From Neovahlkampfia damariscottae (lineage: Eukaryota; Heterolobosea; Selenaionea; Neovahlkampfiida; Neovahlkampfiidae): a DNA stretch of 64,000 nt. Shown here piece after piece: positions 4,001-64,000 of the stretch. The DNA is taken from NCBI GenBank assembly GCA_016618085.1, contig JABLTG010000029.1:78152-142151 (forward strand). The letters run 5' to 3'. The notes beneath the pieces were generated by a model. It worked only from the letters and a program-made list of their open reading frames with translations, ran no database searches and was not told the DNA's origin. A program made the translations under genes and the position numbers. Positions within the stretch are counted from its first letter, which is position 1. Every line of letters starts with the position of its first letter.

Positions 4001-5642
4001 TTTTTATAAAATTCTTTCAATAATTCAATATAAAACATTGATCCTCTTCTTAATGTTCTTTTTTGAGTTTTGTAATCAACATGATACAAACCAAACTTCA
4101 TAGCATATCCTAAAGATAAATTTAATGAATTTTGAATTTTATTACCTTTAATCCATTCAAAATTATCCATTAAACTCCAGAAGTAATATGATTGGACATT
4201 GACTCCTTCCTCGACAGCTTTGCTGAGAGCATACGTGTATCGTTTTATGAATGTTTCTCGTAAGGAATCTTTTGCATCCGCCAATCCATTTTCTGTTACG
4301 ACTATTGGGATTTTTAATTTATCAAATCTTTTCAATGCTCTGTATAATCCCTCTGCATAAACTGGATAACCCATATCTGTCATTAAATGTTTGAATTCTG
4401 GTCTTTCACCAATTTCAATTGGTGGAAATTGTTTTCCATTCCACTAATATTTAAATATTAATTTCAATTTTGTTTTTACCATAATGTTAAAATGACTATA
4501 ATAATTTAATCCAATGAAATCATTTGATGTTTTTCCTAATTCATTTTTGTAATGAATATCAATAAAAAATGGAATATAAGCTTTGAATTCTCCTTTTTCA
4601 AAATAATTTAACATTAATTCGTTAAAATATTCATGCATATAAGATGCAATGGAAAATAATAAAAGGTTTGAACGTGGTCTAAAATTAAAGTTGTTTTTAA
4701 AATACTTACAGTGGCTATTTTATGAAATTTAGATTAATTTCAAATATTTCTTACATCCATTTGATGATATTCTTTTACAATTCCAATTTGATTGATATTT
4801 CCATGTGGTAATTTTTTCAATTTGTGATAGACGTTTGTGTGGCATGCTAAAATGTTTGCCAATGTTTGCATACCAAGTTGAAGATTTCTTTTACCTGGTG
4901 GATATGTACCAACCCAAAATCCAGGCATAACATAAGCCATAACTTCATTGAAAGTACACCACATTTTAACTTTACTTCCATATTGTTTAAATGCATACTC
5001 AGCAAAGTCTTCAAACCAAATTAAATTTTCATAGCTCTAAAAGTTAAAAAAAAAAAATTTTTCACTGAAAATTCTCCAATATTTTGAAACCAAACAGGAT
5101 TGGTACTTGACAAATGTTAAAAAAATGTTTTTTTACTAATGATGTAAAGTAATCATAGGAGCAATACCATTTTTTATAAGTTCATCAATAACGTCATGAT
5201 AATGTTGTGTAACTTCTTGTGAAAAAATACCTTTTTTCATTTCCGGTTGAATTTTTGACCATTCAATAGAAAAACGATATGAACGTACTCCTAAATTCTT
5301 CATTAATTGTATGTCTTCTTTATAAAGAATATAATGTTGACAAGCGTCTCCAGATTTATCTCCATTAGCAATGTTGCCTGGAATATCTTCCCATTCAGAC
5401 CAATTATTTGTACAATTTCCTTCTACTTGATGAGCTGCAGTTGCTGTACCAAAAGTAAATCTTGGTGAACGTGATTTTATTCTTGACGCTGTTTTTGCTG
5501 CTGACAAATCTATTTCGTCCCAGTTCCATCTTAATTCTGGATCATTGTTCAAACTTTCAGAGTTTAATGGGTTCAATTTGAAGATACTATAACCAAAGAG
5601 CAAAGTAACCAAAAGCACTACAGTTGTGGTGGAAAATGCCAT
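3997..5642 (-). CDS. Glycoside hydrolase family 1 (beta-glucosidase type) with N-terminal membrane anchor
   Basis: Six exons: 5642-5137, 5105-5066, 5036-4755, 4714-4710, 4678-4480, 4443-3997, giving 492 residues. GH1 landmarks are FGTATAAHQVEG, SIEWSKIQPE, TFNE (acid/base Glu), FIGLNYYSHF, VVTENG (nucleophile Glu) and YYFWSLMDNFEW, so the enzyme looks active. It should cleave beta-linked glucosides. The ATG at 5642 follows a CCAATC directly and starts a hydrophobic signal/anchor, so secretory or lysosomal location is likely. The 5-nt exon at 4710-4714 is needed: without it the frame meets stops (see findings). Introns are 29-40 nt. Confidence 0.92.
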
Positions 5643-5750
5643 GATTGGTTGTTGAAGGAAAAATTCATGATTGGACAAATTTTATTTTTATGTTAGAGTT
5701 TATTCATTTTGCAATTTTTTACTTTTTCATTTAGATCATATCTAATTTCT

Positions 5751-62823: not shown

Positions 62824-63405
62824 TTAGTTTGAAGCACCTGGGACAACTTTTTCATCAAGACTTGTGTAATCTACAGCAACATTTTCAATAGTAGCTTTAA
62901 TTGAGTTTTGTTTGTTTTGATGTTCAGAAATTTTTTTCTTTTGGTAAGCAACAACTAAAGTTGAAAGGAATGTTACAATAACTCCCATTGGTAACATAAA
63001 CATAAAAAATCCTCCGATTGAACCAAAGATAACTAAAAGTACTTTGATGACTGATGGAACTGTAGTTTCAGCAACTGGAACAGCAGCAGGTTCAGCAGCA
63101 AATGTATTTGGAAATGGTTCAGCAGCTACACCTCCTTCTAAAACGTTAGTTTCTTCAAGTGCTCTTGTGGCTTCTGTATTCTCTTGTTTTTCCAAAGCTG
63201 CACGTTCATCCGCTTCTAATTTTCTTTCTTGTGTTGGTTCTTCTGATTCTGTGTTTTCTTCATGGTCAAGAGTTTGTTCTTGATCGTCTTCGAGAAGATG
63301 TTCATCTTCAAGAGCTGGTGTGTCATATTCTAATGAATCTTCGTATGCTGATACGAATGTAAGTGAAATAGCAAGTATAACTAATATCAAGGTTAAATAT
63401 TTCAT
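62824..63405 (-). CDS. Acidic type I membrane protein
   Basis: Single exon, 193 residues: signal peptide (MKYLTLILVILAISLTFVSA), an acidic, Glu/Thr-rich ectodomain without Cys, an Ala/Val/Pro stretch, a membrane helix (GGFFMFMLPMGVIVTFLSTL) and a cytosolic tail starting QKKK. Mucin-like or calcium-binding surface roles are possible. No family recognised. Several ATTGGTC/GCCAATG elements lie upstream. Confidence 0.7.
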   Translation of the reverse strand: MKYLTLILVILAISLTFVSAYEDSLEYDTPALEDEHLLEDDQEQTLDHEENTESEEPTQERKLEADERAALEKQENTEATRALEETNVLEGGVAAEPFPNTFAAEPAAVPVAETTVPSVIKVLLVIFGSIGGFFMFMLPMGVIVTFLSTLVVAYQKKKISEHQNKQNSIKATIENVAVDYTSLDEKVVPGASN

Positions 63406-63833
63406 ACTACGTTAGTTGTATGTGTTTGAGAACTTTTATTCAAAGGTAAGTTTGGCCAATGAGATTAGAGACTTTTTTAAATGCCGATTGGTCCATTTAC
63501 CCAAAGTACCATCTAATTGGTTGTCCATTTTCTAACGTTCATTTTGGAGGCTAAAATGTTTTTTTTTATTTGATTTTTCTCATTTCCTTCTGTAATATAA
63601 TTTTGTCTGAATTTGGAATTTGCCCCAATCAATCACAATGAATCTCGGAGAATTTTGTCAAGTCAAACTGAATCGGAATATTTGATTTTTTCGTTACAAA
63701 GTGACCATTCGGAATCGTTTGTGAACTATATATAGATTTTCTAAATTCCGAAAAATTATGAATGGATGGAAAAATCAGAAAAGACGCCAAGAAAACTAAT
63801 AGAGCAGGCTGATGAGCAATAATGATCAATGCA
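63406..63833. other. Spacer before the IS607-like gene
   Basis: About 430 bases with four CCAAT-like elements near 63450-63530, a TATATATAG at ~63726 and no convincing gene. If a mobile element enters at the right edge, its left end should lie here, but IS607 elements have no terminal inverted repeats to mark it. Confidence 0.4.
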
Positions 63834-64000
63834 ATGAAAAATATATCACCAGTAAAAAAATCAGAGAACAGTAGGAGTTTGTAATTCAACACTCAAACGA
63901 TGGGCAAATGAAGGAAAAATTAGTAGTATCCGAACAATCGGAAACAAAAGGCTCTATGGATGTGATGATATTAGAAGAGTCTTTGGAGTTGAAAGTATTG
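63834..64000 (+). mobile_element. Start of an IS607-family serine recombinase gene (MerR-like DNA-binding domain), cut by the window edge
   Basis: The last ~40 codons read GVCNSTLKRWANEGKIS, then IRTIGNKRLY and DDIRRVFGV, the signature of the N-terminal helix-turn-helix in IS607 TnpA resolvases. It is typical of copies in giant viruses and some eukaryotes. The likely ATG at 63834 (MKNISPVK) is in a different frame; one A fewer in the seven-A run at 63854-63860 joins them. The catalytic domain and any TnpB/Fanzor partner would lie beyond 64000. Confidence 0.75.

Follow-up and report, generated by a model that had tools for sequence, protein, structure and literature searches.

We consider it likely that the DNA analysed here, a stretch of 64,000 nucleotides from Neovahlkampfia damariscottae (hereafter the window), carries at its right edge the left end of an IS607-type element present in at least 27 copies, that a Fanzor2 nuclease is nested in the +1 frame of its recombinase gene with a PFW/SWF module under selection of its own, and that the element operates by the mechanism proposed below. 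Judging from the sequences, we read the small N-terminal module of this Fanzor2 as dual-coded over tnpA. As far as we have checked, the element in the window belongs to a known kind, and it is the nested dual coding that is new.

The contig that carries the window (C220, with the window at 78152-142151) is 142151 bases long and its final base is window position 64000, so this assembly holds no sequence past the edge. All parts of the element lie on the plus strand. The N-terminal DNA-binding block of an IS607 TnpA is encoded at 63834-64000, as had been predicted originally from these letters. The placement of the element at the right edge was also correct, although its beginning lies further left than was proposed, at a TG dinucleotide (63669-63670, preceded by C) that the aligned copy ends suggest is the crossover site. 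A search of the same genome turned up no empty allele at this site, the left flank matching itself alone, so this junction was placed by comparing copies. From there, the 5' part of the element runs for 330 bases (63671-64000) until it is cut by the contig end, an assignment that draws on 27 matches in the genome and on a whole copy in contig C3. It includes the left arm of an internal inverted repeat (63698-63707, 10 of the 11 bases of the arm in C3) and, 5' of both start codons, a putative TATA-like stretch (63726-63735). The 5' part of tnpA, with its MerR-like DNA-binding block, begins with the ATG at 63812 (63812-64000). A second ATG in the +1 frame follows 10 nt later, at 63822, and its spacing, together with the Fanzor2 profile matches of the C3 and C241 copies, marks it as the probable start of the tnpB/Fanzor2 frame (63822-64000). 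In the window both frames reach a stop after 20 codons, and this copy is therefore a disrupted 5' fragment, whereas tnpA is open in C3. The element starts 264 bases upstream of the ATG of a neighbouring minus-strand gene (62824-63405), whose 193-residue product has, as read from its translation, a signal-peptide-like start and a hydrophobic stretch.

The only copy found whole in one contig is that of C3 (L014 3304-5414), which measures 2111 bases from TG to TG. Its tnpA product matches the NCBIfam model for IS607 transposases (NF033518) with 176.6 bits, for a cut-off of 110, as well as the Pfam models Resolvase (PF00239, 70.3 bits) and MerR_1 (26.3 bits). A MerR-like protein devoid of a recombinase domain, the outcome that would have spoken against the original prediction, is thus not what the complete copy encodes, given that the recombinase catalytic domain is there. 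The expected Fanzor partner is present as well. Specifically, the nuclease part matches the Cas12f1-like TNB domain (63.4 bits), the guided-TnpB model (116.8 bits) and the OrfB domain, has RuvC and zinc-finger motifs, and finds the mimivirus Fanzor2 (9b0l) as its best sequence match in the PDB. Both its DPG in RuvC-I and its grouping with Fanzor2 proteins and cyanobacterial IS607 TnpBs place it among the Fanzor2 and pro-Fanzor nucleases. Over 25 sequences, C3 included, D195 P196 G197, E337 and D372 are invariant and no glutamate after the LLP.F motif is, and by our own assignment E337 (in E-x-Y-T-S) is the probable repositioned RuvC-II glutamate. The host protein falls in a Fanzor2 clade known mostly from metagenomes, and an origin from giant viruses, noted as frequent for such elements, is not shown by this placement. 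A protein from a record labelled as a Flavisolibacter metagenome-assembled genome (P0011) shares 51% identity with the host nuclease across 97% of the latter, which might reflect either a misbinned eukaryotic contig or a transfer.

The recombinase and the ends of the element are those of the IS607 family, with a TnpA that joins a MerR-like part to a serine recombinase in C3 and with matching TG at both termini. Among the 27 left ends, 14 were laid out; CTG precedes the shared sequence in 13 of these, and the flanks of all 14 differ. At the right, the loci end in GTGGGTG (19 of 20) or GTAGGTG (1 of 20), beyond which the flanks are unrelated. The aligned copy ends show neither a target duplication nor a terminal inverted repeat. 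We infer that TG is the crossover dinucleotide and that the motif next to the target is probably CTG. In the C3 copy, the two arms of an 11-base inverted repeat stand 29 bases in from the left TG and 20 bases in from the right end.

The 3' end of the element is predicted to encode a guide RNA, and C3 thus carries both of the downstream components to be looked for, a TnpB/Fanzor and, as a prediction, its RNA. A predicted structure of four helices is shared by 11 distinct 3' ends, and its closing helix pairs ACCCA with the terminal UGGGU. In the alignment, 98.6% of the cells are paired, compared with 95.3% in shuffles, and 16 cells show double changes, compared with 6.1. Four pairs of helix 1 are changed on both sides, with covariation confined to one helix; helix 3 and most of helices 2 and 4 are invariant and so are little informative on the structure. 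A search of Rfam with the 3' end of C3 returned no family at gathering score.

In the host element, the tnpB frame starts at the ATG 10 nt past that of tnpA and continues in +1 through all of tnpA into the nuclease core, and its N-terminal part matches the Fanzor2 profile in both C3 and C241. To place this arrangement among its relatives, we scanned 160 loci from viral contigs and from bacterial and archaeal genomes (L039-L118 and L160-L239), sampled by similarity and by hand choice, with profiles of tnpA and tnpB. A tnpB reading frame is present in 159 of these loci and a tnpA match in 29. The two genes overlap by at least 150 nt in 23 loci (24 pairs), and all 23, several of them near copies from Microcoleus, use a single +1 register. 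The overlap is at most 70 nt, or absent, in five further loci (L061, L065, L102, L112 and L116), whose registers are mixed. Twin ATGs stand 10 nt apart in L014, L160, L161, L162, L166 and L168 and 7 nt apart in L163, L164 and L170; in L040, L044, L171 and L172 the first start of the tnpB frame lies 64-85 nt downstream. Several elements of bacteria and phages have a tnpB frame that opens only within tnpA. A viral scan that used the single host protein found no relative, whereas the alignment-based viral scan did. Nested pairs were also seen in records labelled Parachlamydia (L171), Riflebacteria (L172) and Vibrio zhanjiangensis (L178), the first two being metagenome-assembled genomes that may owe their labels to faulty binning. 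In L044, a second TnpB-like frame can be read from the translation directly beyond the nested element, on the opposite strand (4464-5696, minus strand).

The N-terminal module encoded by the overlapping part of the tnpB frame is marked by two motifs, PFW and SWF. In a tree of 59 sequences, 55 module-bearing proteins separate from four canonical TnpBs with support of 100/100, at a split that carries a long-branch warning. Both the cyanobacterial and the phage/bacterial branch contain members whose nesting is seen in DNA, and the host is the sole such member of the eukaryote/virus branch, where the others are known as protein sequence or are L039. Of 120 listed homologues, 35 have no core start recognizable by pattern and another 35 have N-termini of fewer than 60 residues, and both groups stand outside the spacing count; among the 50 whose extension reaches 60 residues or more, five lack one or both motifs by pattern and 41 have exactly 40 residues from PFW to SWF. 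The same distance was found in 43 of 53 hand-chosen rows (36 of the 120 listed proteins, for which nesting is inferred, and 17 loci), with distances of 27-38 or 48 in nine rows and no PFW in L042. On the tree, these nine rows call for nine changes, of which well-supported branches force at least five. The outcome depends on the choice of the 53 rows, and apart from L039, L165 and L169 a row was labelled 'unlocked' on the strength of its spacing. Every one of the 53 rows has the tryptophan of SWF.

The motifs also persist where the recombinase is broken or lost, although the distance between them, normally 40 residues, is often altered there. Two cyanobacterial loci, from Prochloron (L165) and Okeania (L169), have a degenerate or 5'-truncated tnpA and a tnpB frame that is still open; L045 and L046 keep only the 3' half of tnpA; and L039 has lost the gene, with a 4.3-bit trace left in the expected register. 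All five retain the module with SWF, and PFW reads PYW in L039 and PFF in L046. The tnpB frame now starts shortly before PFW in L165, L045, L046 and L039. The spacing remains 40 in L045, in which most of tnpA is lost, and it is 42 in L178, a distant nested member. In structure models, the PFW and SWF motifs are moderately ordered, and residues 1-132 of P0002 are disordered. The models align to 9b0l from the motif onward, with the module matched by residue range only. A PDB search with a sequence profile of the module alone gave nothing convincing (best E 0.29) and did not find 9b0l.

How the module came to lie over tnpA is a question on which we hold a view with modest confidence. On balance, we slightly favour its birth by overprinting, with a TnpB frame opening in +1 over the recombinase catalytic domain before the cyanobacterial, phage/bacterial and eukaryote/virus branches separated. 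Selection would then have fixed PFW and SWF while TnpA locked the spacing between them, and the module would have been released several times on loss of tnpA. The dual-coded pair would then be found in all three branches by way of twin starts, and gene callers that accept one frame would truncate one of the two proteins. The module might instead be an old domain of TnpB over which tnpA slid later, or the two frames might have been merged by recombination. Such a history suits the presence of nested members in all three sampled branches, and the direction of change is unreadable from present sequences alone. However, the outgroup canonical TnpBs begin at the core and have neither motif, and IS607 recombinases without a long overlap exist, as in the five loci noted above. 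Module-free TnpBs and recombinases of this kind favour an order in which tnpA came first, and we therefore regard an old TnpB domain as rather unlikely.

For the dual-coded reading, we asked whether the +1 frame is selected in its own right. Synonymous codons were shuffled within each tnpA 4000 times for 20 sequences, comprising 15 nested loci, L178, two host copies and two non-nested IS607 controls. No +1 stop occurs over the whole of tnpA in 12 of the 18 nested sequences, with P(0 stops) of at most 0.018 for each, and these include C241, whose own tnpA is stopped. The other six have one to four stops, all before the tnpB frame opens, with whole-gene P of 0.004-0.14. The two controls have 20 and 26 stops in this frame. 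Furthermore, the +1 products of 14 nested sequences are more alike than their TnpA sequences demand, with a mean pairwise BLOSUM62 score of 0.944 versus 0.314 in 200 synonymous shuffles (SD 0.025, maximum 0.416) and with peaks at PFW and SWF. The start of the nuclease core, situated inside tnpA in many of these loci, also contributes to this signal. The other columns in excess are PFW and the one after it, an S and an L together with some columns around them in the helix that follows, SWF(S), and a few before PFW. Between the PFW helix and the SWF stretch there is little excess, limited to one column of a TKTD patch and two columns just before SWF. Substitutions between the host subfamilies fall on tnpA codon positions 1, 2 and 3 in numbers of 15, 5 and 28, and position 3 is again the freest in pairs of cyanobacterial sequences, so tnpA is the more constrained of the two frames. 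These counts are too blunt to decide on dual coding by themselves.

A simpler account would hold that the +1 frame is open only as a by-product of TnpA conservation and codon usage, and that Fanzor2 is started near the core so that the N-terminal part is never made. Some of the data agree with it, since most columns from PFW to SWF (TKTD.VDLD-like) carry no signal beyond that of TnpA, the stop test is not significant in five of the 18 nested sequences, and database N-termini are shorter than 60 residues in the 35 listed homologues already mentioned. Nevertheless, the signal at PFW, at S..L and at SWF survives conditioning on TnpA, the same frame is riddled with stops in the IS607 genes that are not nested, and the motifs are ordered in models and persist where tnpA is broken or lost. 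Given these findings, we think it improbable that the frame is a by-product, and we retain the reading of a dual-coded module.

The window copy had been thought to be perhaps an isolated insertion, a view that the rest of the 20.4 Mb genome contradicts. The last 301 bases of the window match 27 places, each on a different contig, at 79-100% identity and with a best E of 1.1e-154, so that at least 27 left ends are present, and a 551-base probe from the opposite end of the whole copy yields 24 right-end match rows in the same genome. A TnpB zinc domain is matched in 81 rows genome-wide, 79 of them above cut-off. Of the 20 left ends whose position is visible, 18 run outward to a contig end, and eight of the 24 right-end rows start within 29 bases of a contig start. 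Since left and right ends alike sit at contig ends, the assembly breaks inside a dispersed repeat. Copies at contig ends could also suggest a subtelomeric element; we rejected this idea because both left and right ends are found there, pointing outward, and because some copies are interior. Among the loci of the best 30 of the 81 TnpB rows (L122-L151), 22 are shorter than the full 3198 bases, which means that they lie at most 1.5 kb from a contig end, and Fanzor-type elements may rank among the chief reasons why this assembly is broken. The same genome also has a second Fanzor family with zinc-finger motifs (L240, C144:19000-22500; L241, C260; L242, C254; L243, C236). No tnpA match was found in these four pieces, DPG is present in L240 and L241, and L240 has a PFW-like patch.

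The copies form two subfamilies that are about 84% alike at the 5' end, and decay is common among them. In C3, tnpA is open and tnpB has one stop, in C241 and C303 it is tnpA that contains a stop, the 5' tnpA frame of C292 is also disrupted, and C272 retains about 450 bases of the 5' part. None of the seven longer host copies (C3, C303, C250, C241, C292, C156 and C272) has both frames open throughout. The intact close tnpB relatives that we saw are metagenome proteins (P0001 and P0002), which are known as protein sequence. The prediction of a eukaryotic contig agrees with what surrounds the copies, in that contigs with other copies contain Lon-, Sir2-, ABC-transporter- and UBC-like frames, several of which seem from their translations to be interrupted by introns, and the host Hsp90 is 100% identical to a EukProt protein. 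Among named sequences, its identity is 72% to that of Naegleria lovaniensis and about 70% to those of plants. Bacterial or viral contamination, or an artefact of assembly, is scarcely credible: the preponderance of left ends at contig ends, where assemblies err, would suit it, but left ends on 27 contigs with different flanks in the 14 laid out, two interior copies (C3 and C272), eukaryote-like frames adjoining the copies and two diverged subfamilies all argue against it.

The part of the tnpB frame that is written over the recombinase catalytic domain encodes a small module, a PFW helix followed by an SWF strand, kept under its own selection. In the mechanism that we propose, one transcript would give rise to both TnpA and Fanzor2, and in eukaryotes this might occur by leaky scanning past the first ATG, which has a pyrimidine at -3, to the second, which has a purine there. 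TnpA would excise the element as a circle and reinsert it at TG. Fanzor2, loaded with a guide RNA made from the 3' end of the element and its right flank, would cut the emptied site beside a CTG-like motif, and repair from a sister copy would restore the element. The N-terminal module would pack on the nuclease core. Cutting by TnpB favours retention of an element through repair. In the portions of the literature drawn on here, excision and insertion of the element as double-stranded DNA at matching dinucleotides have been proposed for IS607 TnpA (PMC4058570, PMC6188088), and an IS607 TnpB with its guide RNA is described as cutting its target beside a short motif (PMC10711439).

There is current interest in Fanzors as programmable nucleases and in how they arose from IS607 TnpBs. 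A module that is real and overprinted would explain the Fanzor2 extension that is missing from canonical TnpBs. It would also explain a shared spread and evolution of recombinase and nuclease, since any mutation of one gene alters its partner too, and why only one of the two may appear in annotations. Fanzor2 constructs designed from a short annotated N-terminus may miss a conserved part of the protein. It would also provide a case of a protein module arising over the catalytic domain of another enzyme, with natural releases of the overlap.

Several parts of this system are familiar from earlier work, of which we drew on portions for the comparisons that follow. A general overlap of the two IS607 genes is known (PMC6188088, PMC9956272), and for IS607, IS1535 and ISC1926 the former source speaks of 'two orfs, which often overlap' (eLife 2018, PMC6188088). 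In the open-access literature consulted, we found no account of nesting that spans the whole gene in one fixed register, of a second frame under selection, or of a released module. The elements of that study share with ours an N-terminal DNA-binding recombinase, an inverted repeat near the ends and a dinucleotide crossover. However, their crossover is GG whereas ours appears to be TG, and whole-gene nesting is unstated in the part of the paper that we drew on. The occurrence of Fanzor2 in IS607 elements of eukaryotes and giant viruses has likewise been known for some time (Bao and Jurka 2013, PMC3627910). Those elements also combine a serine recombinase with Fanzor2, have no terminal inverted repeats or target duplications, and reside in eukaryotes and their viruses. 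They differ in that the crossover here appears to be TG and in that nested frames are not described in the text consulted, whose main part does not contain the word 'overlap'.

The pro-Fanzors, which are cyanobacterial IS607 TnpBs (NAR 2023, PMC10711439), come close in having DPG, a repositioned glutamate (by our own assignment), an IS607 recombinase and an expected guide RNA at the right end. The main text of that paper does not contain 'overlap', 'frame' or 'N-termin', and the portion we used confines pro-Fanzors to cyanobacteria, whereas our nested relatives also come from viral contigs and from records that bear the labels Riflebacteria, Parachlamydia and Vibrio. Among viral Fanzor2 proteins, that of mimivirus (TnpB-like protein L79, PDB 9b0l) shows 22-23% identity, and our module profile misses it. 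Guide RNAs have been reported for Fanzors, including the Fanzor2 of Naegleria lovaniensis, in a study that also noted N-terminal Fanzor extensions and, in the portion available to us, describes no overlap with a recombinase gene (Nature 2023, PMC10432273). This Naegleria protein (P0085) is 45% identical to the host protein and keeps PFW together with GWF.
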